This document shows positions 196-32,476 of a stretch of 33,390 nucleotides of DNA, one piece after another. The stretch covers positions 1 to 33,390 of the forward strand of contig JAHCBA010000054.1 in NCBI GenBank assembly GCA_019634625.1, read 5' to 3'. The number at the start of each line of letters is the position of its first letter. Position 1 is the stretch's first letter. The notes under the pieces were generated by a model. It had not been told where the DNA came from, did no database searches, and saw nothing but the letters and a program-made list of their open reading frames with translations. Made by a program: the position numbers and the translations under genes. The stretch comes from Verrucomicrobiia bacterium. GTDB lineage: Bacteria; Verrucomicrobiota; Verrucomicrobiia; Limisphaerales; CAIMTB01.

Positions 196-3000
196 ATGAG
201 CGAGATCCCGAAGGCCTACGAGCCAAAGTCCGTGGAAGAAAAATGGTATGCTTTCTGGCAGGAACACGGCTGCTTCACCGCCGATCCCGCACGCGTCACC
301 GACCGCCGTCCGGCCTACGCAATCGTCATCCCGCCCCCAAACGTCACCGGCGTCCTCACCCTCGGACACGTCCTCAACAACACCATCCAGGACATCCTCG
401 CCCGCAAGGCACGGATGGACGGACGAGAAGTCCTCTGGCTACCCGGCACCGACCACGCCGGCATCGCCACCCAAACCGTCGTCGAACGGCACCTCAAGAA
501 GGAAGGCGTCCTCCAGCACCGCAATGATCTCGGACGCGAACCCTTCCTCGAACGGGTCTGGGAATGGAAGGAGAAACACGGCGGCATCATCATCCATCAA
601 CTCAAGAAGATCGGCGCCTCCTGCGACTGGAGCCGGGAACGGTTCACCATGGACCCGGAATACTCCCGCTGTGTCCAGAACGCCTTCGTGTCGCTCTACC
701 GCAAGGGCCTGATCTATCGCGGCCGCCGGATGGTCAATTGGTGTCCGGTCTCCCTGACCGCCCTTTCCGACGAGGAAGTGATCATGAAGGAACAAAAGGG
801 CTTCCTTTACCACTTCCGCGTCGAGGTCGTCGAGGAACCCGGCACCTTCCTCACCATCGCCACCACGCGCCCTGAAACGATCCCCGCCGATACCGCCGTG
901 GCTGTGCATCCCGGCGACCCCCGCTACGCTCATCTCATCGGCAAGCACGTCCGGCGCCCCCTTCCTGTCGAAAAGCAAACCCCCATCCCCATCCTTGGTG
1001 ACGCTCACATCGATCCCCAATTTGGAACCGGCGTCCTTAAAGTCACCCCCGCCCATGACCGGGCCGACTTCGACATCGGTCAGCGCCATCAATTGCCCGT
1101 CCTCGATGTCCTCAACCCCGATGGCACCCTCAACACCCTCGCCGGTGCCGGACTCGCCGGGCTCGACCGGATGACCGGCCGTCAGCGAGCCGCCGAACTC
1201 CTCGAATCCATCGGTGCCCTCGACAAGGCCGAACCCTACGTCAACAACGTCGGCTTCAGCGAACGCGCCGACGTTCCCATCGAACCCCGCCTCAGCGAAC
1301 AGTGGTTCCTTCGCTACCCGGCAGTCGATGCCGCCCGCGCCTGCGTCCGTCCCGGCGGCAGCGAAGACGCCGCCACCGACACTTCTCAGTCCCACTCCAC
1401 CAGTGCCCCTCCGACCGCCAGCGGCCCCCTGCGCTTCTTCCCCGGCCGATGGGCCAAGGTGTACGATCACTGGATGGATCATCTCCAGGACTGGTGCATC
1501 AGCCGCCAGTTGTGGTGGGGACACCGCATCCCGGTCTGGTACCGCCGTCGAACCTCCTCCGACCCCGGCATCGAAACCCGTCCGGATACCGCCCAGCCCG
1601 CGATCTGGTGCGATGTCCAGCCGCCTCCCGACCCGGAAAACTGGGAGCAGGACCCCGATGTCCTCGACACCTGGTTCAGCTCGTGGCTCTGGCCCTTCGC
1701 CACCATGGGTTGGACCGGCAACCCCGACCGCGATGCCCAGAACGCCACCCTCCGCACATTCTTCCCGACCACCGACCTGGTAACCGGCCCCGACATCCTC
1801 TTCTTCTGGGTCGCCCGCATGATCATGGCCGGCTACGAGTTCATGGGGGAAGTGCCGTTCCGCAACGTGTACTTCACCGGCATCGTCCGGGACCGACAGG
1901 GCCGCAAAATGTCCAAGAGCCTCGGCAATTCCCCCGACCCGCTCGTCCTCGTCGATCGCTACGGCGCCGATGCCCTCCGCTTCGGAGTCATGCGCTCCGC
2001 CCCCCTGGGCCAGGACGTCATCTACGACGAGGGCAACGTCGAACTCGGCCGCAACTTCTGCAACAAGCTCTGGAACGCCTGTCGCTTCCGCCAACTCCAG
2101 GGCGGTGCCGTCCAGGCTGAAATCCAGCCCGAACTCCTCACCCACGACGACCGCTGGATCCTCCTCCGCCTCGACCAGGCCATCGCCGAACTCGACCTCG
2201 CCTACGCCGGCTACCGCTTCAACGAAGTCACCCAGATCCTCCACCGCTTCTTCTGGAGCGAGTACTGCGACTGGTACATCGAGGCCAGCAAGGCCGCCTT
2301 CGCCGCCGATCCCGGACCCGCCCGTGCGAACAAGCTCGCCGTCATCGACTTCGTCCTCAGCCACACCCTCCGCCTCTTCCACCCGGTGCTGCCCTTCATC
2401 ACCGAGGAACTTTGGCACGGCCTGGGCTATGCCATCGACATGCCCCCACAGCAGGGCGGCACCACCATCATGAACGCCCCCTGGCCCAAGCCGCTCGAGG
2501 ACGAGGAACGCGCCCTCTGGGGCCTTGAACCCGCCGTCGATACCTTCGCCGCCGCCAAGTTCGAACTCGTCACCCTCGGCCGTAACCTCCGCGCCCAGTT
2601 CCAGATCCCTGCCAATCGCAAGGCGCGCTTCATCCTCCGCCCCGCCGGAGCCCTCCCCCCCGACGCCTGGGATACCCTCCGCATCCTCCTTAACGCCGCC
2701 CCTCTCGACCCCGCCGCCCACGACTGGACCCCCGAGCGCGGCACCCCCAGCGTCGGCAACGCCCTCGGTGACCTCTTCCTGCCCCTGGCCGGCCTGGTGG
2801 ATCCGGAAATCGAGCGCACCCGCCTCACTCGCGAACTCGAGAAGGTCCGCGCCGAGATCGCCAAGGTCGAGGAACGCCTCGCCAATCCGGACTTCACTGC
2901 CAAAGTCCCCCCCAAGGTCCTCGAGGAACACCGCCAGCGACTCGCCGACTGGCGCGATCGTTCCGCCCGGACCCAAGCCGCTCTCGCTCAGTTGCCCTGA
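196..3000 (+). CDS. valS: Valyl-tRNA synthetase
   Basis: Class I aminoacyl-tRNA synthetase of 934 residues that charges tRNA-Val with valine in the cytoplasm. The N-terminus MSEIPKAYEPKSVEEKWYAF is typical of ValS. The HIGH-type signature reads LGHVLN at about residues 57-61, the CP1 editing domain begins near the TTRPETIPADTAVAVHP stretch, the WCISRQLWWGHRIP block is present, and KMSKS is at residues 571-575. The last ~70 residues form the charged coiled coil (IERTRLTRELEKVRAEIAKVEERLAN) characteristic of ValS and absent from IleS/LeuS. Length matches the family. The ATG at 196 is preceded only by a weak GGA. One oddity is a Ser/Thr/Pro/Ala-rich insertion at residues ~386-411, just before the conserved RFFPGRWAKVYDHWM block. 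It is followed by a 339-bp gap, so it is probably monocistronic. Confidence 0.97.
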   Translation: MSEIPKAYEPKSVEEKWYAFWQEHGCFTADPARVTDRRPAYAIVIPPPNVTGVLTLGHVLNNTIQDILARKARMDGREVLWLPGTDHAGIATQTVVERHLKKEGVLQHRNDLGREPFLERVWEWKEKHGGIIIHQLKKIGASCDWSRERFTMDPEYSRCVQNAFVSLYRKGLIYRGRRMVNWCPVSLTALSDEEVIMKEQKGFLYHFRVEVVEEPGTFLTIATTRPETIPADTAVAVHPGDPRYAHLIGKHVRRPLPVEKQTPIPILGDAHIDPQFGTGVLKVTPAHDRADFDIGQRHQLPVLDVLNPDGTLNTLAGAGLAGLDRMTGRQRAAELLESIGALDKAEPYVNNVGFSERADVPIEPRLSEQWFLRYPAVDAARACVRPGGSEDAATDTSQSHSTSAPPTASGPLRFFPGRWAKVYDHWMDHLQDWCISRQLWWGHRIPVWYRRRTSSDPGIETRPDTAQPAIWCDVQPPPDPENWEQDPDVLDTWFSSWLWPFATMGWTGNPDRDAQNATLRTFFPTTDLVTGPDILFFWVARMIMAGYEFMGEVPFRNVYFTGIVRDRQGRKMSKSLGNSPDPLVLVDRYGADALRFGVMRSAPLGQDVIYDEGNVELGRNFCNKLWNACRFRQLQGGAVQAEIQPELLTHDDRWILLRLDQAIAELDLAYAGYRFNEVTQILHRFFWSEYCDWYIEASKAAFAADPGPARANKLAVIDFVLSHTLRLFHPVLPFITEELWHGLGYAIDMPPQQGGTTIMNAPWPKPLEDEERALWGLEPAVDTFAAAKFELVTLGRNLRAQFQIPANRKARFILRPAGALPPDAWDTLRILLNAAPLDPAAHDWTPERGTPSVGNALGDLFLPLAGLVDPEIERTRLTRELEKVRAEIAKVEERLANPDFTAKVPPKVLEEHRQRLADWRDRSARTQAALAQLP

Positions 3001-3339
3001 CGACGGCCCTCGAATGGAGCGGCGGAGCAACGTGAAACGCCCGCACGGACCGACAGGCAACCCGCCAGCTGGTTGTCCCCGCGATGACGTCTCCCAATCC
3101 GCCAGCACGTCGCCGCACCTTCCCCGCAACGAGGGCTCGATCCCACCAGACCCCCAGGAAGGCCTCAACCATCCTCAAGGCAATACGCTCGCCCAGGATT
3201 CGGGCCGCCGGCTTTTCCATCCCTCGGCGCTTGTCGCTTCGGAGCCGGTGAGGCAAGGTCAGTCGCGTCTTACTTGTCGCGATGTCGTGACATTCCGGTG
3301 ACAGCCTGGTGGCGCGCCGGAGCACGATGAACCGGGCCC
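3001..3339. other. Intergenic stretch with no supported gene
   Basis: 339 bases separate valS from the VTC gene. A minus-strand reading frame crosses it (about 3325 down to 2894) but overlaps the 3' end of valS, has an Arg-rich composition typical of GC shadow frames and matches no family I recognise. No strong hairpin followed by a T-run is visible. The promoter of the downstream VTC operon presumably lies here, but I cannot point to clear -35/-10 boxes. Confidence 0.4.
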
Positions 3340-4170
3340 ATGAACGAAGATCGGTTGCAGATGCAACGCCTGGAATTGAAGTACCAGGTGTCCGACGATG
3401 TTGCGCTGGCCGCCAGGGACTTCATCAGCTCCTACCTCGAGCTGGACGAATTCGGCGCCACCCGCCCCAATCTCTCCTACCCCGTCCACAGCCTGTACCT
3501 CGATTCCCCTGGGCTCGCGACCTACCACCACACCATCAACGGCAATAAGAACCGCTTCAAACTCCGTGTCCGCTTCTACGAGAATCGCCCGTCGGCGCCC
3601 GTCTATTTCGAAATCAAGCGCCGCATGAACAATGCCATCCTCAAACAGCGCGGCGCCGTCCACCGCGACGCCGTGGACCGCCTCGTCGCCGGCCAGCTCC
3701 CCGCACCCGCCGAACTGGCCACGGCCGACCCGCGGCACCTCGCCGGCCTCCAGGCCTTCGTCACCCGTATGATCGAGCTGCGCGCCCGTCCTGTCGCCCA
3801 TGTCGCCTACCAGCGTGAAGCCTGGATGAGCCCCCGCGACAATTCCGTCCGCGTCACCCTCGACCGCGACGTCCTGTTCGAACCCGAACCGGTCGCCCGC
3901 CTCGAAACCCGCATGGCCGATCCGCTCCGCGTCTTCGGTCACCGCGTCATCCTCGAACTCAAGTTCACCGGCCGTTTTCCCGATTGGTGGCAGGAACTCG
4001 TGCGGGTGTTCAACCTGCGCCAGTCGTCCGCCGCCAAGTACGCGGACGGCGTGGCCCGCTACGGCGAGGACCGGCTGAAGGCCGCCCTCCGCGGCGAGGC
4101 CTGGGGCTGGGCCGCCCCGGTCTCCGATCCCGAACTGCCCGCCAACCGACCGCTGCCGGTCTCCCCCTAG
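3340..4170 (+). CDS. VTC-domain polyphosphate polymerase-like protein
   Basis: 276-residue cytosolic protein of the VTC/CYTH-like triphosphate tunnel superfamily, related to the catalytic Vtc4 domain that makes polyphosphate from ATP in yeast. The tunnel-lining charged residues can be read directly: E12 and K14 in RLELKYQV, YLDS at 53-56, R72/K74/R76/R78 in RFKLRVRF, EIKRR at 91-95, R171/T173/D175 in RVTLDRD, E206 and K208 in ILELKFT, and the C-terminal SAAKYADG (S230, K233, Y234). It has no membrane segment. It is 16 bp upstream of a DUF4956 membrane protein, a pairing seen repeatedly in bacteria, which suggests a membrane-coupled complex. The ATG at 3340 puts the first catalytic strand at residue 10, as expected. 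Polyphosphate synthesis is inferred from the family and not proven for bacterial members of this type. Confidence 0.9.
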   Translation: MNEDRLQMQRLELKYQVSDDVALAARDFISSYLELDEFGATRPNLSYPVHSLYLDSPGLATYHHTINGNKNRFKLRVRFYENRPSAPVYFEIKRRMNNAILKQRGAVHRDAVDRLVAGQLPAPAELATADPRHLAGLQAFVTRMIELRARPVAHVAYQREAWMSPRDNSVRVTLDRDVLFEPEPVARLETRMADPLRVFGHRVILELKFTGRFPDWWQELVRVFNLRQSSAAKYADGVARYGEDRLKAALRGEAWGWAAPVSDPELPANRPLPVSP

Positions 4171-4186
4171 CTCCGCAGCCCCTCTC

Positions 4187-4870
4187 ATGGACTGGCTCCG
4201 AACCGCCGACATGGCCGCCGTCCCCACGGACTTTGCCGCCGTGATCCTCGGCATGCTGCTCGCCTTCCTTGGCGGCCAGGCGCTCGCCTGGACCTACATG
4301 TACACCCACCCCGGCCTCTCCTACTCCCGAAGCTTTGTCAGTTCCCTCATCGTCATCCCGGTGGTGGTCTCCCTCGTGATGCAGGTCCTTGCCAACAACC
4401 TCGTCACCGCCTTCGGCCTGATGGCCGTCTTCGCCATCGTCCGCTTCCGCAACATCCTCCGCGACACCCTCGATACCAGCTACATCCTCACCACCATCGT
4501 CCTCGGCATGGCCGCCGGCACCCAGAAATACGCCACCGCCGTCCTCGGCGCCGGCTTCGGCGTCGCCCTCTTCCTCTACCTACGCATCTCCGACTTCGGC
4601 GCCCGGCACCGCTACGACATGATCCTCAACCTTCACTGGTCCCGCCCCCTCCCGGAACTCGCCTCCCTCGACCGCCTCCTCACCCGCCACAGCCGCGCCA
4701 TGGTCCGCGCCAGTCAGCGCACCAACGAGGGATACGGCGGCGTGGACCTTTCCTACCGCCTCCTCCTGCGCGATAGCAGCCGCACCCCCGATCTCATCGC
4801 CGAACTCCGCGATCTCCACGGCGTCTCCCGCGTCACCACCGTCAAGGCCGAAGACGAGTCGGAACTCTAA
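4187..4870 (+). CDS. DUF4956 family membrane protein
   Basis: 227-residue inner-membrane protein. Hydrophobic helices can be read at about residues 15-36, 47-70, 72-84 and 97-127, with the family-typical FAIVRFRN and DTLDTSYILTTIVLGMAAG segments between them, followed by a soluble C-terminal domain (~130-227) ending in TTVKAEDESEL. DUF4956 proteins commonly neighbour VTC-domain proteins; here the gene starts 16 bp after the VTC stop and ends 2 bp before an HlyD-type adaptor, so the three are almost certainly co-transcribed. A role as membrane partner or channel for the VTC enzyme is inferred from this linkage; no activity has been established for the family that I can name. Confidence 0.88.
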   Translation: MDWLRTADMAAVPTDFAAVILGMLLAFLGGQALAWTYMYTHPGLSYSRSFVSSLIVIPVVVSLVMQVLANNLVTAFGLMAVFAIVRFRNILRDTLDTSYILTTIVLGMAAGTQKYATAVLGAGFGVALFLYLRISDFGARHRYDMILNLHWSRPLPELASLDRLLTRHSRAMVRASQRTNEGYGGVDLSYRLLLRDSSRTPDLIAELRDLHGVSRVTTVKAEDESEL

Positions 4871-4872
4871 CC

Positions 4873-5949
4873 ATGGAATCCCGCTTGGAACCGATCCCCA
4901 GCCCGCCGGGCCATCTCCTGCGGGAGTTCTGCCATCGCGTCCTGCCCACCCTCGCCTTCCTCGGCGCCATCCTCGCCAGCACCATCCTCTGGAACGTCCG
5001 CTTCAATGGCTTCCAGATCTTCGGCGAGGTCGAACCCATCCGCGCCAATGTCACCGCCGTCGAAGGCGGCCACCTCATCCACTGGTCCGTCGAACGCTTC
5101 CAGCCCGTCACCAACGGCCAGATCCTCGGCGCCCTCCAGATCCTCGACCCCGATGCCATCCGCTCCGAACTCGCCGTCCTCGGCTCCGAACTCTCCCTGA
5201 TGCGCTCCCGCATGGCCCTCGACGAGGCCCGCAACGAACAAAACGTCGAAACCATGCGCGCCCGCTGGCTCGAAGCCCGCGTCAACCTCGCCACCGCCCG
5301 AGTCACCCTCGAAAACGCCCGCCGCGACCTCGAACGAAACCGCAGTCTCCGCGCCGATCGCATCGTCTCCGATGCCGAGTTCGATCTCGCCCAGTCCGCC
5401 TTCGACGCCCTCCAGGCCGAGGTCCACGAACGTACCCGCGTGGTCGAGGGTCTCGAAGAGGCCGTCCATACCCTCGACACCACCCACCGCCGCACCCAGG
5501 GCGGCGCCCTCGATGTCATTTCCGAAGCCCTCGCCGCCCAGGAGCGCCTCCTCCTGCGCCAGCGCGATCAACTCCTCCGCGCCCCCATGGACGGCATCAT
5601 CAGCGTCGTCAACCACCGCACCGGGGAACGCCTCGTCCCCGGCTCCGTCGTCGCCATCGTCGCCGCCCCCACCTCCGAACGCATCCTCGCCTACGTCCGC
5701 CAGCCCCTCATGCTCGACCTCAAGCCCGGCATGCAGGTCCAGGTCCGCACCCGCGGCCGCCCCGCCCGCACCGCCACTTCCCACATCCTTCACATCGGTG
5801 CCGAAATCGAACCCATCCTCGCCCCGTCCTTCCTCCGCCCCTTCAACCTCACCATGGACCACGGCCTCGCCTTTTCCGTCGCCCTGCCCCCGGAGCTCCA
5901 CGTCCTCCCCGGCGAAATGGTGGACCTCACCGTCTGGCCCGGTCGGTAA
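4873..5949 (+). CDS. HlyD-family periplasmic adaptor (membrane fusion protein)
   Basis: 358-residue membrane fusion protein. One N-terminal transmembrane helix (~24-46, [18 protein letters not shown]) anchors it in the inner membrane. It is followed by a first lipoyl/barrel half ([23 protein letters not shown]), a long Arg/Glu/Ala-rich coiled-coil hairpin (~105-235), the second lipoyl half ([30 protein letters not shown]) and a beta-barrel domain ([26 protein letters not shown]). This order is that of HlyD/EmrA adaptors. It is the third gene of the VTC-DUF4956 operon (2-bp gap). No ABC, RND or MFS pump gene and no TolC gene is adjacent, so the usual partner is missing from the locus. Confidence 0.85.
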
Positions 5950-5950
5950 T

Positions 5951-5985
5951 CTCCACTCTCCACTCTCCACTCTCCACTCCCCACT
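5951..5985. repeat. Heptanucleotide microsatellite (CTCCACT)n
   Basis: Four perfect CTCCACT units (5951-5978) followed by one imperfect unit, CCCCACT (5979-5985), starting one base after the stop codon of the HlyD-type gene. A similar CTCCACTCTCCAC string recurs downstream of the AIM24 gene near 33160, again just after a stop codon. Confidence 0.85.
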
Positions 5986-5989
5986 CACC

Positions 5990-6019
5990 AGCCCCAGCCC
6001 CAGCCCCAGCCCCAGCCCC
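5990..6019. repeat. Hexanucleotide microsatellite (AGCCCC)5
   Basis: Five perfect AGCCCC units, 30 bp, immediately after the CTCCACT microsatellite. Non-coding position. Likely prone to slipped-strand length variation. Confidence 0.85.
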
Positions 6020-6109
6020 TTCGGCCTCCGGAAATCGTTCGTTCCTGCTTCCCCCTCTCCCTCGTGGCCGCATGCACCCCATTCGATGGAGGATGGCGGG
6101 AGTCTTGCA

Positions 6110-6135
6110 GCGATCGCGCGCTGCGATCGCGCGCT
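6110..6135. repeat. 13-bp perfect tandem duplication containing GCGATCGC
   Basis: GCGATCGCGCGCT occurs twice head to tail (6110-6122 and 6123-6135). Each copy contains the octamer palindrome GCGATCGC, known as HIP1 in cyanobacteria. The second copy abuts a TTGACA box. Confidence 0.8.
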
Positions 6136-16052: not shown

Positions 16053-17312
16053 TCAGGACAGCATTTCCTTCACCCGGTAGGCACTCATGGCCAGCAGCGC
16101 GCCGATGGCCAGCAGCGCCACCGCATTCTGCCACGCGCGATTCCGGTGCGGCCCCACCACGCGCGGATCGTTGGCCAGCATCAGCAGCACCACCGCCACC
16201 AGCGGGACGGTCAGGATCGTGGTCTTCTGCGCGATCACGATCCCGCTCAACGCGGACCCCGAGCGCATCAGGTAGAACGCCGCCGCCAATCCCACCGCCA
16301 TCCCCACCGTGGTCCACACCCGCGCCACCCATCCGCTCAAACGGGCCTCCCACCCCATCCCGTCCGCCAGCAGCGCCCCGCCCACCATCGCATTGACCAC
16401 CACCGACGAGAATCCCGCCGCCAGGAATCCCACGCCGAACAGGACCACCGCCGTCGGACCCAGCAGCGGCCGCAATTGATTCGACAGATCCGCGGCGCTG
16501 CCCACCTCGACTCCGCGCAGCACCGTGGCCGCCGTCCACATGATCGTCAGGGACACCGCAAACAGCACCCCGATCCCCACCACCGCCTCCCGCACCCCGA
16601 CCGACAGATCGTCGCGACCCCATCCCTTCTGCCTCGCCAGCGACGCCTGGTACAGGGCGGCGATCACCGAAAACGTCGTCGCCGACAGCCCGATGGCCAG
16701 CCCCGTCAGTTCCCCCGGCCACACGCCCGGCACCAGGCCCCGCAGCAGCTCCATCGGATTGGGCCGCGCCAGGGCAAGATTGAAGAGAAACGCCAGCAGC
16801 ATCACGGCGATCAGGGCCGTCATCGCCTTCTCGAGAAAGCGGTACAGTTGGCGCGCTCCGAACACGAACACCACCCCCGCCCCGCCCACCACCAGCATCC
16901 AGACCGATTCGCCCACCCCCGTCAGCGTGCTCAACGCCGTCGCGCACGCGATGTAGTTCGAGGACTGAAACCCGGCGCACACCACAAAGGCCAGCAGGCC
17001 GATCGTCACCGCCAGCCAGCGCCCGTAATGGCGCCCCACCACGGTGAGGATCGAATCGGCGTTGAGGATCCCGATCCGTGCCGACATCGCCGTGAACACC
17101 ATCATGAACGAGGCCGTGATCACCAGGGCCCATACCATCGACATGCCCACCGCCGCCCCCAGCTTCGAGGTGATGGTGATCGTGCCCGGCCCGACGACCA
17201 CCGCCGCCGTGATCAACCCCGGACCCAGATTGCGCCACAATCGTCCCGCCGACACCGCATGACCCGCATCCGGCGACGGCAGGGAACCCTGGGAGGAATG
17301 GTCGGTCGGCAT
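16053..17312 (-). CDS. Nramp-family transporter lacking the canonical metal-binding motif
   Basis: 419 residues from the ATG at 17312, chosen because GGAGGG lies five bases upstream and because frames further upstream run into a dispersed repeat. About 11 hydrophobic helices in the LeuT fold as in Nramp proteins; TM1 follows RNLGPGLITAAVVV. In canonical Nramp, TM1 carries DPGN, which binds Mn/Fe; here it reads GPGT (41-44) in GPGTITITSKLG. The TM6 region that normally reads MPHNLYLHS reads FSVIAALYQAS (~214-224). Both metal-coordinating elements are therefore replaced, so classical proton-coupled Mn2+/Fe2+ transport is doubtful. It is upstream of the SDR and lyase genes on the same strand (gap ~78 bp), and it may import a metabolite or a different ion for them; this is inference. 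Confidence 0.85.
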   Translation of the reverse strand: MPTDHSSQGSLPSPDAGHAVSAGRLWRNLGPGLITAAVVVGPGTITITSKLGAAVGMSMVWALVITASFMMVFTAMSARIGILNADSILTVVGRHYGRWLAVTIGLLAFVVCAGFQSSNYIACATALSTLTGVGESVWMLVVGGAGVVFVFGARQLYRFLEKAMTALIAVMLLAFLFNLALARPNPMELLRGLVPGVWPGELTGLAIGLSATTFSVIAALYQASLARQKGWGRDDLSVGVREAVVGIGVLFAVSLTIMWTAATVLRGVEVGSAADLSNQLRPLLGPTAVVLFGVGFLAAGFSSVVVNAMVGGALLADGMGWEARLSGWVARVWTTVGMAVGLAAAFYLMRSGSALSGIVIAQKTTILTVPLVAVVLLMLANDPRVVGPHRNRAWQNAVALLAIGALLAMSAYRVKEMLS

Positions 17313-17317
17313 GGAGT

Positions 17318-17323
17318 CCCTCC
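17318..17323 (-). promoter_or_regulatory. Strong Shine-Dalgarno site deciding the Nramp-like start
   Basis: GGAGGG on the minus strand, five bases before the ATG at 17312. Few other genes in this window have such a clear site, so it settles the start and rejects the 65-residue upstream extension, which would be encoded by the repeat at 17413-17521. Confidence 0.7.
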
Positions 17324-17412
17324 ACTCTCCCGTCAATCCCCCATCCGACGCAATCCGGGACCCCGGCCCCAAAGAAACACCCGTCCCTCCCGAATGAAGC
17401 GCAGGTGTGAAT

Positions 17413-17521
17413 TCGGAGGGCCGAGTTCCACGAGGCCGCAACAGCATGGAGCCTTGGGTGGTGGACTCGCGGAGCTCGCCCCTCCGATTCGCTGCCGCCT
17501 CACCCACAATTCAGGGATGCA
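17413..17521. repeat. Dispersed inverted-repeat element, copy 2 (inverted)
   Basis: The core 17413-17487 is 75 bp, the same length as copy 1. Its reverse complement matches copy 1 closely at both ends (TCGGAGGGGCGAGCTCC... and ...GGCCTCGTGGAACTCGG). A tail similar to that of copy 1 (CACCCACAA...GGGATGCA) runs to 17521. It lies upstream of the Nramp-like start and just beyond the terminator of the LamG-like gene. Confidence 0.8.
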
Positions 17522-21140: not shown

Positions 21141-21168
21141 GAAACTTCGTGCATATGCATGAAGTTTC
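21141..21168. repeat. 28-bp near-perfect palindrome sharing the array core
   Basis: The left arm GAAACTTCGTGCAT (21141-21154) and right arm ATGCATGAAGTTTC (21155-21168) are inverse complements except for one position, where a G faces a T. The centre GTGCATATGCAT differs by one base from the core of the 145-bp array. As RNA it would give a 12-bp stem, including one G-U pair, with an AUAU loop. It lies in the divergent upstream region between the LamG-like and FG-GAP genes. Confidence 0.9.
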
Positions 21169-21233
21169 GGTCCTATTGCGGCCCCGGTCTCGACCCCTCC
21201 CTCCCGGCACGGCAACCTCCGCCCGCCGTTCCC

Positions 21234-24200
21234 ATGCCATCGCGCCCCGCCCTCCTCTTCCTCATCCTGTCCCTCGTTCAGGCCCAGGTCGCCCCAGCTG
21301 CCCCGATCCCCTGGGAATCGTTTCCCTCCCATCGCCGCATCCCCCTCCCCCAAGCCAGCGCCGAACGTTCGGGCTTCACCCTCCTCCATGCCGCCGCCGC
21401 CGGCATCCTCTTCACCAACCGTCTCTCCGAGGAACGTTCCCTCACCAACCAGGTCTTCCTCAACGGCTCGGGCGTCGCCCTCGGCGACATCGATGGCGAC
21501 GGCCTCGCCGACCTCTACTTCTGCGGTCTCGACGCCCCCAATGCCCTCTACCGCAACCTCGGCAACTGGCGCTTCGAGGACATCACAGCCCGCGCGGGAG
21601 TCGCCTGCGCCGACCAGGCCTCGACCGGTGCCGCCTTCGCCGATGTCGATGGCGACGGTTCCCTCGATCTCCTCGTCGCCGGCATCGGACGCGGTGTCCG
21701 CCTGTTCCTCAACGATGGCCGGGGCAACTTCCGCGAGGCGACCGACGCGGCCGGCCTCCGGTCCACCGCCGGGACGGCAACCCTCGCCCTCGCCGACATC
21801 GACGGCGACGGCTGGATCGACCTCTACGCGGTGAACTACCGCAACGACACCATGCGCGACCTGCCCGGCATCGAATTCACCGTCGGGGTCACCCAGGGCG
21901 TCCGTCGCCTCCTCACCGTCAACGGCCGCCCCGCCGACGCCGAGGATCTCCGCGGCCGTTACGTCTTCGACCAGGCCTCCGGCATTCTCGAAAACGGCCA
22001 GGCGGATGTCCTCTATCGCAACCTCGGCAACGGTCGCTTCGCCGCGGTTCCCTGGACCGAAGGCGCCTTCCTCGACGCCAACGGTCAACCGGCCGAAGTC
22101 CCCTACGACTGGGGCCTTGCCGCCATGTTCCGCGATCTCACCGGCAACGGCGCCCCCGATCTCTTCGTCTGCAACGATTTCCATTCTCCCGACCGGCTCT
22201 GGCTCAACGACGGTTCAGGCCGCTTCCATGCCGCCGATCCCTCGGTCCTCGCCCAGACCAGCCTGTTCTCGATGGGCGTGGACTTCGCCGACCTCGACCG
22301 CGACGGCCATGACGATTTCCTGGTCGTGGACATGCTCAGTCGCGACCATGCCCGCCGTCAGGTCCAGGTCCTCGACGCCACCTCGTTCGCTCCCTCCCTC
22401 GCCCGGGTCGCCGGCCCCCCCCAGTCCTCACGCAACACCCTGTTCCGCTCCCGCGGCGACGGCACCTTCGCCGAAATCGCACGCCTGGCCGGCCTCGCCG
22501 CCTCCGAATGGTCCTGGTCCCCCGTCTTCCTCGATGTCGATCTCGATGGTTACGAGGATCTCCTCGTCACCACCGGGCACTGGCGCGACGCCATGAATGC
22601 CGACGTCGCCCGCGACCTCGACGCGCGCCAACGCCAACGCCCCCTCCCTCCACGCGAGCAACTCCGACTCCGTCGCCTCTTCCCACGCCTCGACACCCCC
22701 AACCTCGCCTTCCGCAATCGTGGCGACCTCACCTTCGAGGATCGCAGCGCGGAGTGGGGCTTCGATTCCCGCCGCATTTCCCACGGCATGGCCCTCGCCG
22801 ACCTCGACCTCGACGGCGACCTCGACGTCGTCATCAACTGCCTCAACGACGGCCCCCTCCTCTATCGCAACGAATCGACCCGGCCCCGCATCGCCGTCCG
22901 CCTGCTCGGCCGCCCCCCCAACACCCGCGCCATCGGCGCACGGGTGTCCATCCATATCCCCGGGCTCCCCGTTCAATCCCAGGAAATCGTCGCCGGCGGT
23001 CGCTACGTCTCCCACGACGAAGGCAGCCGCACCTTCGCCGCAGGGCCCACCCGGCAGCCCGCCCGCATCGAGGTCACCTGGCCCGGAGGGGAACGCTCCA
23101 CCCTCGATACCGCGCCCCCCCAATACCTCTACGAAATCCGCCAGCCGCCCGCCCCCGCGCCATCGAACCGCACCCCGGTTCCCTCACGGCCGCCCCCGCT
23201 CTTCACCGACGCCACCGACCGCCTCGGACACCTGCACGTGGACCAGCCGTTCGATGACTTCGCCCTCCAACCGCTCCTGCCCCGGCGCCTGAGCGATCTC
23301 GGACCCTCCCTCGCCTGGTTCGACTTCAACGGCGATGGCCGGGACGATCTCCTCGTCGGGGCCGGACGTGGCGGCCGCCTCGGTGTCTTCCGCAACGATG
23401 GAGCCGGCGGCTTTGTCCCCCAGCGCTCCCGCCTGTTCGAGACCCCCCTCGACCGCGATCTCAATACCGTCCTCGGCTGGCGCCCCCATCCCGCCGAACG
23501 CGCCCTGCTCCTCGGCCATTCCCACTACGAAACCGCCGAACCCGTCGCCCCCGCCGTCCATCACCTCTCCCTCACCACCGGTCAACTCGACACCCGGCTC
23601 GCCCGGTCCCGCAGCAGCGCGGGCCCCATGACACTCGGCGATCCCGATGGGGACGGGCACCTCGATCTCTTCGTCGGCGGCCGCGTCAACCGCGCCCGCT
23701 ACCCGGAACCCGCCGACGCCACCTACCTCCGCCACGATGGCACGGTCTTCCGCGAAGATCCTGAAGCGACCCGCACCTTCTCCCGTGTCGGCATGGTTAG
23801 CGACGCCCTCTTCACCGATCTCGATGGCAACGGCCGCCCGCTGCTCGTGCTCGCCTGCGAATGGGGAGCCATCCGGATCTTCCGCTGGACCGAAGGCGCC
23901 TTCCGCGAATGGAACCCGCGCCTCGTCGGGAACCTCGGCCCTTTCCTCCCCGCCACGCTCGCCGATCTGACCGGCTGGTGGAACAGCGTCGCCTCGGGCG
24001 ATTTCGACAACGACGGCCGCCTCGACCTCGTGGCCGGCAACCTCGGCCGCAACACCTCCCGCCAACCCTACCTCCACCAACCCATCCGCCTCGCCCATGG
24101 CGAACTCGAACCCGGCGGCCCCCTTGCCCTCCTCGAATCCCACGTCGATCCCCTCCGCCACCGCCACGTCCCCACCCGCGATCTCAATGCCCTCTCCCGA

Positions 24201-24962
24201 TCGTTTCCCGCCCTGATTCCCAGCTTCCCCACCTTCGCCGCCTTCGCCGAGGCCTCCGCCAGCGACCTCCTCCTCGCCGGACTCCCGCCCATGCGCCACG
24301 TCGAGGCCGCCACCGCCGACTCCGTCCTCCTCCTCCATCGCGGCGATCACTTCGAAATCCGTCCCCTCCCCCTCGAAGCCCAGTTCGCCCCCGTCTTCGG
24401 CATCGGCGTCGGCGACTTCGATGGCGACGGCAACCTCGACCTCGTCCTCGCCCAAAACCTCTTCGGCACCAGCCCCGCCGAGAGCCGTCACGATGCCGGC
24501 GCAGGCGTCCTCCTCCAGGGCGACGGCCAGGGCGGCTTCACCGCCCAACCCCCGGCCCTCAGCGGCATCCAGGTCCTCGGCGAAGGTCGTGGAGTGGCCG
24601 TGGCCGACTTCGACGACGATGGCCGCCCCGACATCGCCATCGCCCAGCATCGCGGCCCAACCCGGCTGTTCCGCAACACCCGTGGGCAACCCGGACTTCG
24701 CGTCCGCCTGGAAGGCCCGCCCACCAACCCGGAAGCCATCGGTGCCACCGTCCGCATCCGCTTCGCCGACGGTCGCCTCGGCCCCGTCCAGGAACGACGC
24801 GTGGGCGGCGGCTACGGGTCCCAGGACGGTTCCACCCTCCTCCTCGCCACCCCTTCCACTCCAGACTCCCTCGAGATCCGCTGGCCCCTCGGGCGAACGG
24901 AAAGCGTCCCGATCCCGGCCGGCTCCACCCGCCTTGTCGTCCCCTGGTCCACCGGACGCTGA
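21234..24962 (+). CDS. Exported FG-GAP/VCBS protein with two ASPIC/UnbV domains
   Basis: 1242 residues from the ATG at 21234, which opens a signal peptide (MPSRPALLFLILSLVQAQVAPAAP). The longer frame from 21159 is rejected because that ATG falls inside the 28-bp palindrome and would bury the signal. Two similar halves follow. The first has FG-GAP/VCBS repeats with calcium-binding DxDGDG loops (DIDGDGLADLYFCGLD, DVDGDGSLDLLVAGIG, DIDGDGWIDLYAVNY) and ends in an ASPIC/UnbV domain (GARVSIHIPG...QEIVAGGRYVSHDEG...IEVTWPGG). The second (~residue 680 on) has more FG-GAP repeats (DFNGDGRDDLLVGAG, DFDGDGNLDLVLAQN, DFDDDGRPDIAIAQH) and a second UnbV domain (GATVRIRF...RRVGGGYGSQDG...LEIRWPLG). The protein should form beta-propellers outside the cytoplasm; CRTAC1-like adhesion or polymer binding is likely. 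First of three co-directional genes. Confidence 0.9.
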   Translation: MPSRPALLFLILSLVQAQVAPAAPIPWESFPSHRRIPLPQASAERSGFTLLHAAAAGILFTNRLSEERSLTNQVFLNGSGVALGDIDGDGLADLYFCGLDAPNALYRNLGNWRFEDITARAGVACADQASTGAAFADVDGDGSLDLLVAGIGRGVRLFLNDGRGNFREATDAAGLRSTAGTATLALADIDGDGWIDLYAVNYRNDTMRDLPGIEFTVGVTQGVRRLLTVNGRPADAEDLRGRYVFDQASGILENGQADVLYRNLGNGRFAAVPWTEGAFLDANGQPAEVPYDWGLAAMFRDLTGNGAPDLFVCNDFHSPDRLWLNDGSGRFHAADPSVLAQTSLFSMGVDFADLDRDGHDDFLVVDMLSRDHARRQVQVLDATSFAPSLARVAGPPQSSRNTLFRSRGDGTFAEIARLAGLAASEWSWSPVFLDVDLDGYEDLLVTTGHWRDAMNADVARDLDARQRQRPLPPREQLRLRRLFPRLDTPNLAFRNRGDLTFEDRSAEWGFDSRRISHGMALADLDLDGDLDVVINCLNDGPLLYRNESTRPRIAVRLLGRPPNTRAIGARVSIHIPGLPVQSQEIVAGGRYVSHDEGSRTFAAGPTRQPARIEVTWPGGERSTLDTAPPQYLYEIRQPPAPAPSNRTPVPSRPPPLFTDATDRLGHLHVDQPFDDFALQPLLPRRLSDLGPSLAWFDFNGDGRDDLLVGAGRGGRLGVFRNDGAGGFVPQRSRLFETPLDRDLNTVLGWRPHPAERALLLGHSHYETAEPVAPAVHHLSLTTGQLDTRLARSRSSAGPMTLGDPDGDGHLDLFVGGRVNRARYPEPADATYLRHDGTVFREDPEATRTFSRVGMVSDALFTDLDGNGRPLLVLACEWGAIRIFRWTEGAFREWNPRLVGNLGPFLPATLADLTGWWNSVASGDFDNDGRLDLVAGNLGRNTSRQPYLHQPIRLAHGELEPGGPLALLESHVDPLRHRHVPTRDLNALSRSFPALIPSFPTFAAFAEASASDLLLAGLPPMRHVEAATADSVLLLHRGDHFEIRPLPLEAQFAPVFGIGVGDFDGDGNLDLVLAQNLFGTSPAESRHDAGAGVLLQGDGQGGFTAQPPALSGIQVLGEGRGVAVADFDDDGRPDIAIAQHRGPTRLFRNTRGQPGLRVRLEGPPTNPEAIGATVRIRFADGRLGPVQERRVGGGYGSQDGSTLLLATPSTPDSLEIRWPLGRTESVPIPAGSTRLVVPWSTGR

Positions 24963-30026: not shown

Positions 30027-32375
30027 TCACTCGTTCCCCTCCGTCGCCTCCATCACCGGCTCGTCCGGCACGATCCAGGCCCGGAACCGCTTGATCTGCT
30101 CCGAGGTCCCAAGAACCAGCAACTCGTCTCCCGCCAACAGGGTGTCTCTCCCCGATGGCGCCAGATTGCTCTGCCCGTTCCGCCGGATCCCGCCCAACTG
30201 CACACCCGCCTGCCGGATCAGGTCCAACTCGATGAGCGTCCGTTCCAGCAGCCTCGAACCGCGCGGCACCACCACCATCTCCATGGTGAGCTCATCGAAT
30301 CCCGTCGGGCCCTCCGCCGAAGATGCCGAGGCTCCCAGCATCCGGGCGGCCTTCGCCAGTTGCTCCGGAGCCCCAAGCACCAGGAGCTTGTCCCGCGGGT
30401 ACAGAATGGTGTCCGCACCCGGATTCACGATCCCGAATCCCTGCCGGTCGATGCCCACGATCGAGCACCCGTACTCCTTCCGCAGCGCAAACTTCCCGAT
30501 CGCCTTGCCCCCGTGCGCCGAGTCGCGTGGCAGCGTCACCTCGTCGATCTCCAATTCCCAGTCGTTCGACGGCTTCACCAGCTCCGCCGACCACGCCGAG
30601 GTGGCGGTCGCATGGCTCGCCCGCTTGAGCTGCTGCAGCAACTCGACCTCCAGCCGGCTCTGCCACCGCGCCAGCCGCCGCCGCAGGATGAACGCCACCA
30701 CGGAAAGGAACAGCACCACCAGCAATACCACGCCCGCCACCGCCTGACCCGACGGCAGCAAAGCCAGCAGCCATGCCCCCAGCAGAAAGAAGCCAACCGT
30801 CCGCAACGTGAACTCCAGCACCGGCCGCATCCGCCGCTCCCGCACCCCCCCCTGCGTCGCCCCCTCCGCCAGCATCATCGCCAGCGCCGAAACACTCCTC
30901 CAGATCGCGATCGTCGGCGCCAGCACCACCAGCCCGAGCAGCGACCAGTACACCACCCCCACCCCCATCGGGAACAGCCAGTCGTCCCCCAAGACCCCTC
31001 GCACCCGGTCATACAACGGATTCGCCACCAGGATCACCGCCGAGACCACCAGCATGGACAGCCCCACCTGGACCAGCCGCTTGCGCGTGAGCTGCCACAG
31101 GAGGTTTGCGTTCGACCGCCCCCTCAACCGGTACAGCCAGTCCCGGTACAACCCCACCCACGCCCGCATCGCCGGCGGTTCCACCCGCAATACCCAATCC
31201 GCCAGAGGCTCCGCCCTCCGCATCAACACCGGCGCCGCCAGCGAGGTCAGGAGCGATGCCCCCACCGCCACAGGGAAGAAACTCGCCGGCACCGCCCCGC
31301 TCTCCGTCCCCAGTTGCGCGATGATGTACGAGAATTCCCCCAACGGCACCAGCGCCACCGCCGCCGGTACCGCCTCCCGCGTGCTCGTCCCCACCGCCAT
31401 CAGGCCCAGAGCGCACGCCAGCGGTCGCAACAGCAACGCCAGCGCCGTCACCCCCAGCACCATCGGCCACACATCCACCAGCAGCCGGAAATCCACCAGC
31501 ATCCCCACCGCCACGAAAAACACCGCCCCGAAAATGTGCCGCACCCCCTCGAACACGTCGTCAATGTCCGCCTTGTGCCGGGTGCTCCCGATGATCGCCC
31601 CCAAGAGGAACGCCCCCAGCGCCAGCGAATACCCCATCTCGAACGCCAGCCAACCCAGACTCAACAGCAGCCCGGTCACCACCAGCGTCCGGATCTCCGC
31701 CGGCGCCCCCGCGCTCAGCCGCCCCAGCAGCTTCGGCACCAACAGCAGCGCCACCAGCACGATCAACACCACAAAAGCCCCCAATCCCCCCAGCGTCGGC
31801 AGCAACCCCTTCCCGTCCGCTTCGCCCCCGCCGAATTGCATCAGCGACGTCAGCAGCGTCAGCATGATCACCGCCACCACGTCCTCCAGCACCGTCATCC
31901 CCAGCGCCAGCTGCCCGAACCGCTCGTGCGTCGCGTTCAACTCGTCCAGCACCTTGCTGATGATCGCCGAACTCGACACCATCAGGATCCCGGCCAGAAA
32001 CAACCCCTGCGCCACCGTGCCCCCCATGGCAAACACCAGCACCCGCGCCCCCAGCAACACCAGGATCGCCCCCACCGCCGTGGCCACCACGATCGACAGT
32101 CCAAGCCGTCTCAGCCGGCTGAAACTCAGGTTCAACCCGATCGCAAAAACCAGGAACACCAACCCCACCTGCGCCAGTGTCTGCACCCGGTCCACATTCG
32201 ACACCAGCGCGAACGGCGGCGTATGCGGCCCGACCACCGCCCCGGCCACCAGATACCCCACCACCACCGACAACCCCACCCGCTGGCAGAACCATGCGGC
32301 GGCCCCGGCGGCCACCATGACCACCGCCAGGTCCCGTATGAACAGAATCCCCGTCACCGCCCCTCTTGTAACCAC
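30027..32375 (-). CDS. Kef/CPA2-type monovalent cation:proton antiporter with two RCK_C domains
   Basis: About 782 residues from a GTG at 32375, which has GGAG five bases upstream; the frame is open up to a TTG at 32474, and a GTG at 32357 is a further option. The antiporter domain (~10-400) has the CPA2 signatures LVAGAVVGPHTPPF, FAIGLNLSFSRLRRLG, SSSAIISKVLDELN, TVLEDVVAVIMLTLL and VPLGEFSYIIAQLG. A second group of helices (~450-600; LLGLVVLAPTIAIW, VGFFLLGAWLLALLPSG) precedes two tandem RCK_C/TrkA_C ligand-binding domains (IGKFALRKEYGCSIVGIDR...LLVLGAPEQL and LLERTLIELDLIRQAGVQLGGIRR...LLVLGTSEQI). The NAD-binding RCK_N domain found in KefB/KefC is absent, so gating by NAD/glutathione adducts is unlikely. 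Divergent from the AIM24 gene with ~100 bp between them. Confidence 0.9.
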   Translation of the reverse strand: MVTRGAVTGILFIRDLAVVMVAAGAAAWFCQRVGLSVVVGYLVAGAVVGPHTPPFALVSNVDRVQTLAQVGLVFLVFAIGLNLSFSRLRRLGLSIVVATAVGAILVLLGARVLVFAMGGTVAQGLFLAGILMVSSSAIISKVLDELNATHERFGQLALGMTVLEDVVAVIMLTLLTSLMQFGGGEADGKGLLPTLGGLGAFVVLIVLVALLLVPKLLGRLSAGAPAEIRTLVVTGLLLSLGWLAFEMGYSLALGAFLLGAIIGSTRHKADIDDVFEGVRHIFGAVFFVAVGMLVDFRLLVDVWPMVLGVTALALLLRPLACALGLMAVGTSTREAVPAAVALVPLGEFSYIIAQLGTESGAVPASFFPVAVGASLLTSLAAPVLMRRAEPLADWVLRVEPPAMRAWVGLYRDWLYRLRGRSNANLLWQLTRKRLVQVGLSMLVVSAVILVANPLYDRVRGVLGDDWLFPMGVGVVYWSLLGLVVLAPTIAIWRSVSALAMMLAEGATQGGVRERRMRPVLEFTLRTVGFFLLGAWLLALLPSGQAVAGVVLLVVLFLSVVAFILRRRLARWQSRLEVELLQQLKRASHATATSAWSAELVKPSNDWELEIDEVTLPRDSAHGGKAIGKFALRKEYGCSIVGIDRQGFGIVNPGADTILYPRDKLLVLGAPEQLAKAARMLGASASSAEGPTGFDELTMEMVVVPRGSRLLERTLIELDLIRQAGVQLGGIRRNGQSNLAPSGRDTLLAGDELLVLGTSEQIKRFRAWIVPDEPVMEATEGNE

Positions 32376-32476
32376 CCCGCTCCACCCCGCAAAACGGTAA
32401 TTGCCCTGCCCCGCACTTTTTCCCTCCGATCCCTTCCCATCCCGGATTTCAATCCCACTCAACCCCACCCTCAACC

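Follow-up and report, generated by a model that had tools for sequence, protein, structure and literature searches.

In the yeast VTC complex, polyphosphate synthesis is coupled to translocation through a basic channel, according to the available text of PMC9911596. In Gram-positive bacteria, sets have been described that consist of CotH, a polyphosphate polymerase and either a DUF4956 protein or a membrane protein with an ACT domain; a periplasmic adaptor is not named in the available parts of the two papers concerned (PMC7112168, PMC12345266). Here we describe a locus of a Verrucomicrobiia bacterium in which genes for a VTC-domain protein, a DUF4956 membrane protein and an HlyD-type periplasmic adaptor follow one another. 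It lies on a 33,390-nucleotide stretch (contig JAHCBA010000054.1 of assembly GCA_019634625.1), hereafter the window, which is contig C54 of genome G000 in our numbering (6.74 Mb, 88 contigs, 96.98% complete; G001–G004 are congeners). We lean towards reading the triplet as one envelope-spanning, pump-free export unit for polyphosphate made by the VTC protein, serving secreted CotH kinases.

Conservation of the three-gene operon

The genes for the VTC-domain protein (positions 3340–4170, 276 aa, Pfam VTC), the DUF4956 membrane protein (4187–4870, 227 aa, Pfam DUF4956) and the adaptor (4873–5949, 358 aa, Pfam HlyD_3) all lie on the plus strand and are separated by intergenic gaps of 16 and 2 bp, respectively. 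Open reading frames (ORFs) and Pfam matches agree in this with the operon proposed in a first-pass annotation made from the sequence alone.

Two surveys show how widely the arrangement is kept. In the first, 286 genomes of the class were searched for adaptor, DUF4956, VTC, TolC-type OEP and CotH. Among the full-length adaptors of the window type, 35 of 39 have DUF4956 within 2 kb, and 29 of the 39 have, in addition, VTC within 3 kb. One of 26 other adaptor matches, hand-picked for comparison from the same match listing as the window-type adaptors, is near DUF4956; it belongs to G244, a genome whose triplet has a more distant adaptor (L202). Counted from DUF4956, 73 of 88 matches have VTC within 1.5 kb, and 40 of 88 have a window-type adaptor within 2.5 kb. 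The proximity of DUF4956 to VTC and to the adaptor is more than expected by chance.

The second survey drew on named genomes (GTDB) and used the triplet-type DUF4956 as bait, with 80 loci kept of 325 relatives. This choice makes it independent of the adaptor; the bait and the ranking are, however, both biased towards the triplet subfamily, and the two surveys also share assemblies (L121–L124 belong to genomes G004, G002, G003 and G001). An intact VTC–DUF4956–HlyD triplet is present in 67 of the 80 loci, and both gaps measure at most 50 bp each in 64 of these 67, gaps in relatives being lower bounds because ORFs were taken from the most upstream start. Where the triplet is not intact, the adaptor is interrupted (two loci), short and divergent (three) or accompanied by DUF4956 without VTC (three); the others hold VTC–DUF4956 without an adaptor (three), DUF4956 alone (one) or a contig edge (one). 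Most of the 80 loci come from Verrucomicrobiota, the others from Balneolales, Balneolaceae, Bacteroidetes, Hydrogenedentota and Omnitrophota. The neighbourhood survey suggested by the first-pass annotation thus finds the triplet far beyond the source strain, and the adaptor accompanies DUF4956, not a pump; neither of the two outcomes that the annotation had named as speaking against a joint machine was observed.

A pump gene is not seen nearby either. Among the 17 other window frames scanned, none encodes an ABC, RND, MFS or outer-membrane-factor protein; an Na/H exchanger (30030–32474) and an Nramp protein (16056–17507) are encoded at a distance. For the relatives, Pfam families were tallied over 73 flanking proteins (72 chosen from 173 near-flank proteins, plus the window's valS), and no ABC, RND or MFS family is found within the 25 commonest of 108 families. 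Flank genes in relatives were called by simple scoring, which missed some, such as the LTD gene of L027 that was later recovered. In the same tally, FIST domains occur in 6 of the 73 proteins, and a gene for a FIST-domain sensor follows the triplet in several Verrucomicrobiota (L126, L131 and L142, each scanned individually, and L184).

Predicted properties of the three proteins and their outer-membrane partner

The VTC protein matches its Pfam family with 128.3 bits (cut-off 23, E 4.4e-37), and the window protein gives no match to an SPX or membrane domain. A profile of 17 VTC relatives matches yeast Vtc4 (3g3q; E 1.2e-24), and 19 alignment columns are invariant across the 17. Invariant residues K14, R76, R78, E91, K93 and K102 align to Vtc4 K200, R264, R266, E279, K281 and K294, and R159, R171, E206, K208 and K233 to R361, R373, E426, K428 and K458. 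Apart from K458, we take the aligned Vtc4 residues to line the active site. In the available text of PMC4641920, K458 is named as a catalytic residue, and four basic Vtc4 residues are said to give way to an acidic patch in tunnel phosphatases. Judged by motif position, two of the four places look basic in the window protein (R10, K208) and a third keeps glutamate (E12), the fourth being unplaced; this placement against the AtTTM3 patch is our own reading. We read the window protein as a triphosphate tunnel enzyme and probably a polyphosphate polymerase. Its residues match the polymerase set of Vtc4, in support of the synthesis half of the first-pass proposal.

The DUF4956 protein (44.9 bits, cut-off 30.6, E 1.4e-11) was modelled with AlphaFold2 from 53 sequences. 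The model (mean pLDDT, the predicted local distance difference test, of 81) shows five helices of membrane-spanning length, followed by a ferredoxin-like domain at the C-terminus, which in a fold search resembled ferredoxin-like and ACT domains with Z about 10. R86, R88, D96 and G107 are invariant among the 53 sequences. The first three of these belong to, or directly follow, a basic turn between helices 3 and 4, RFRNILRDTL (residues 86–95; codons at 4442–4471, plus strand), picked out by conservation, model and loop charges: residues 86, 88, 93 and 96 are invariant or nearly so, predicted helices 72–89 and 94–111 flank the turn, and loop 86–94 carries 3.0 lysines and arginines per sequence over 12 sequences. 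Under the positive-inside rule for membrane topology, the loop charges would assign the RFRNILRDTLD turn to the cytoplasmic face, together with the C-terminal domain. We propose that the turn forms the cytoplasmic mouth of a conduit. The MgtC profile scored 12.1 bits on the protein, below its cut-off of 31.4. A streptococcal protein encoded beside a polyphosphate-polymerase gene is described, in the available text of PMC12345266, as having four membrane segments, called MgtC, and an intracellular ACT domain; we read this protein as the DUF4956 protein of PMC7112168.

The adaptor (HlyD_3, 34.6 bits, cut-off 22.2) gave an AlphaFold2 model with a mean pLDDT of 90.7, predicting a short cytosolic N-terminus, a membrane helix within residues 12–44, a barrel-sandwich domain, a long alpha-hairpin (93–161, 167–229) and a beta-barrel; its best Foldseek matches are MacA (E 9e-17) and EmrA (E 2e-16). 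At the hairpin tip (residues 155–166; 5335–5370, plus strand), R155, L159 and S166 fit the TolC-docking motif R-x3-L-x6-S, as defined in the available part of PMC3391258. The tip is conserved: over 98 distinct hairpin-bearing adaptors, the arginine is present in 96, the leucine in 82, the serine in 74 and the combination RL[ST] in 72, and none of the other hairpin columns (141 in all, mean conservation 0.42) is as well conserved as that of R155.

In some relatives, the likely outer-membrane partner of the adaptor is encoded in the operon itself. In L168 and in L167 (identical with L083), the gene order is VTC-DUF4956-HlyD-DUF3616-OEP, with the last genes overlapping, and in L076, from a single-contig genome, it is DUF4956-HlyD-DUF3616-LTD protein-OEP. 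In these operons, no inner-membrane component other than DUF4956 was found next to the adaptor. In L027, L028, L029 and L089, a second adaptor that lacks a neighbouring DUF4956 is part of an HlyD-DUF3616-LTD-OEP set, and the first three of these loci come from congeners of the window genome; the DUF3616 protein of L027 has a weak phytase-like match. OEP has five members in the flank tally (L134, L153, L174, L167, L168), and those of L134, L153 and L174 are on the opposite strand and were excluded from the in-operon count. That neither pump nor outer-membrane factor is adjacent, as the first-pass annotation stated, holds for the window; for the outer-membrane factor it fails in those relatives with in-operon TolC-type genes. 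As partner in the window genome itself, we considered a TolC-type protein encoded at G000:C5, which shares 35% identity with the protein encoded in the L076 operon, but propose no link, since proteins of this type also occur in triplet-less genomes of the order (up to five candidates were scored per genome).

CotH kinases, the export proposal and its rivals

A strong association of the triplet with CotH kinases had been overlooked in the first-pass annotation. In five of seven Balneolales/Balneolaceae loci (L177, L180, L181, L194, L197), a gene for a secreted CotH kinase lies 14–112 bp behind the adaptor in the same orientation; of the remaining two, L172 has no CotH match at that place and L187 ends at the contig edge. 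LTD and a type IX sorting domain are present too in L177, L180, L181 and L194. In L202 the genes are ordered CotH-VTC-DUF4956-adaptor, and another CotH lies beyond them. Across the class genomes, CotH is found in 64 of 66 genomes with VTC versus 13 of 220 without, and in all 42 genomes with a window-type adaptor. Within the 11 families having both states, the counts are 41 of 41 VTC genomes versus 5 of the 81 remaining ones. The p-value of the CotH–VTC association is about 2e-18 with stratification by family and about 1e-11 when genome size is taken into account as well; these values are rough as the genomes are related, but the pattern recurs within families. Beside the window triplet itself (3340–5949), the frames scanned in the window include no CotH. 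Genome G000 has a second VTC–DUF4956 pair on another contig (C1:41014–44681; L005:5015–8682, minus strand), which is without an adaptor and adjoins a CotH kinase gene whose secreted product has an EF-hand.

These observations suggest the following mechanism. The VTC protein would polymerise phosphate from ATP in the cytosol and pass the chain to DUF4956. The latter would be the component in the inner membrane, with its conserved basic turn towards the cytosol. The adaptor would span the periplasm, answering the need to cross a second membrane, and its hairpin tip would dock on a TolC-type outer-membrane channel, supplied from elsewhere in the window genome and from within the operon in some relatives. 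Polymerisation and the membrane potential may drive the chain, much as has been suggested for yeast VTC, and with transfer driven by polymerisation no ABC, RND or MFS pump would be needed. The unit would serve secreted CotH-family kinases, with the exported polymer used by or for CotH at the surface. Where CotH finds ATP in the spore coat is posed as an unanswered question in the available text of PMC7821199; that polyphosphate is its phosphate donor is speculation on our part. The first-pass annotation had likewise pictured a synthesis-and-export machine, and triplet conservation, the Vtc4 residues, the TolC-docking tip and the in-operon TolC-type genes support it in part; polyphosphate as cargo and DUF4956 as conduit, like complex formation, TolC recruitment and the driving force, are what we infer from them.

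Several findings weigh against such an export unit. Six of the 39 adaptors adjoin DUF4956 without VTC alongside. PPK1 is encoded on C3 of G000, and polyphosphate can therefore arise without the triplet, VTC not being its sole possible maker. The fold search placed only the C-terminal domain of DUF4956, its membrane part matching no fold clearly, and a sequence search returned no relative of the protein with a solved structure. TolC-type proteins occur in 284 of the 286 class genomes, so their presence is uninformative. In addition, six distinct adaptors lack the hairpin and keep the rest (L097, L098, L099, L100, L103, L148), meaning that reach to a TolC-type protein is not universal. Eight adaptors are shorter than 300 aa; of these, L102 and L182 touch a contig end and were not included among the hairpin-less six, whereas L148 was included on the strength of its length only. 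The records L154 and L191 duplicate L098 and L097, respectively. Five of the six (L097–L100, L148) are encoded divergently from VTC–DUF4956, and in L099 and L100 CotH comes directly after DUF4956. The sixth, L103 (G152:C12), is from a genome with CotH and without a VTC or DUF4956 match.

The adaptor could instead be part of a conventional efflux pump whose other genes lie elsewhere; its position here would then be an accident of gene order, and the VTC and DUF4956 proteins would act without it. Its closest solved relatives are indeed pump adaptors, and four of the 39 adaptors lie away from DUF4956. Yet 35 adjoin it, the triplet recurs in 67 of 80 DUF4956 loci though the adaptor was not the bait, and the 25 commonest flanking families include no ABC, RND or MFS member, all of which makes such a coincidence very improbable to us. 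Alternatively, the unit might regulate the secreted CotH kinases or phosphate balance: the tunnel enzyme would make or sense a small phosphate compound, DUF4956, with its ACT-type domain, would be a regulator resembling MgtC, and the adaptor would relay the signal, without any polymer export. The strong CotH association and the ACT-like C-terminal domain of DUF4956 would suit this role, as would the streptococcal counterpart with its MgtC membrane domain and ACT domain (PMC12345266, available text), but the MgtC match falls far under its cut-off, the VTC protein retains polymerase-type residues, and a conserved TolC-docking tip together with in-operon TolC-type genes suits transport better than signalling. 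We hold regulation to be unlikely, if the likeliest of these alternatives.

A different cargo is also conceivable, in that the unit may export another product of the VTC fold, such as short phosphate chains or a phosphorylated carrier, or move a polysaccharide in line with the Gram-positive link to Pel. According to the available text of two papers, genes for CotH, polyphosphate polymerase and DUF4956 are found on the flanks of pel operons (PMC7112168), and Pel levels were altered and aggregation was reduced when the CotH gene or the adjoining membrane-ACT gene was mutated (PMC12345266). The absence of PelG from the window genome speaks against this cargo, which we regard as doubtful. If polyphosphate export is correct, bacteria would have a dedicated route to make and export polyphosphate or a related polymer, tripartite envelope machines would extend to a polymerase-driven type, DUF4956 would gain a function, and the phosphate source of extracytoplasmic CotH kinases might have its answer. 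In its boldest form, the proposal would define a new exporter class without a nucleotide- or proton-driven pump: polyphosphate, pushed by the cytosolic polymerase, would travel via an MgtC-like protein, adaptor and TolC-type channel to serve as donor for ATP-less surface CotH kinases, with the adaptor as the Gram-negative answer to two membranes and Gram-positives using CotH, VTC and DUF4956 alone. As a whole, this version is a tentative one to which we give little credence.

As for the surroundings of the triplet, valS (valyl-tRNA synthetase) lies upstream and ends 339 bp before the VTC gene; a 909-aa open frame opposite it (439–3168, minus strand) is most likely spurious, the DNA being G+C-rich. 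Directly after the adaptor stop codon, positions 5950–6025 hold short tandem runs with the units CTCCACT and AGCCCC, and a repeated GCGATCGCGCGC stretch at 6106–6134, downstream of the operon, might form a hairpin. A gene for a secreted TSP3-repeat protein is located downstream of the triplet, and positions 21159–24962 encode an FG-GAP/UnbV-ASPIC repeat protein of 1267 aa.

Relation to described systems

Like the yeast VTC complex, in which Vtc4 acts with membrane subunits (PDB 8i6v, 7ytj), the locus encodes a VTC polymerase domain, its active-site residues being those of the yeast enzyme, and the basic cytoplasmic turn of DUF4956 would by analogy with the yeast channel be the entry point for polyphosphate. 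Unlike the yeast complex, it has no matched SPX domain, has DUF4956 as its putative membrane partner and adds a periplasmic adaptor. DUF4956 also resembles the MgtC/SapB family in its helices and ACT-like C-terminal domain, although the match is weak and not significant; MgtC proteins presumably bear such a C-terminal domain as well.

With the Gram-positive pel accessory sets (PMC7112168, PMC12345266), the window genome shares the pairing of VTC and DUF4956 with CotH, as the set at G000:C1 exemplifies. At 3340–5949, in contrast, the third gene is that of the adaptor, with CotH encoded elsewhere, and no match to PelG (PF16933) was found in G000 at its completeness of 96.98%. According to the available text of PMC12345266, a three-gene arrangement of CotH, polymerase and membrane protein was not found outside the Pel locus. 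Contrary to that statement, the CotH–polymerase–DUF4956 arrangement occurs at G000:C1, in a PelG-less genome.

Among the best-ranked matches in the open-licence literature, no title or abstract describes a VTC-DUF4956-HlyD set, and in the matches listed DUF4956 and HlyD are mentioned together only at separate loci. With TolC-dependent exporters of the EmrA, MacA and HlyD type, the locus shares the adaptor fold, the membrane anchor, the R-x3-L-x6-S tip and, in some relatives, a TolC-type gene in the operon; unlike in these exporters, an ABC, RND or MFS component was not found in the window, and DUF4956 occupies its place in the operon.

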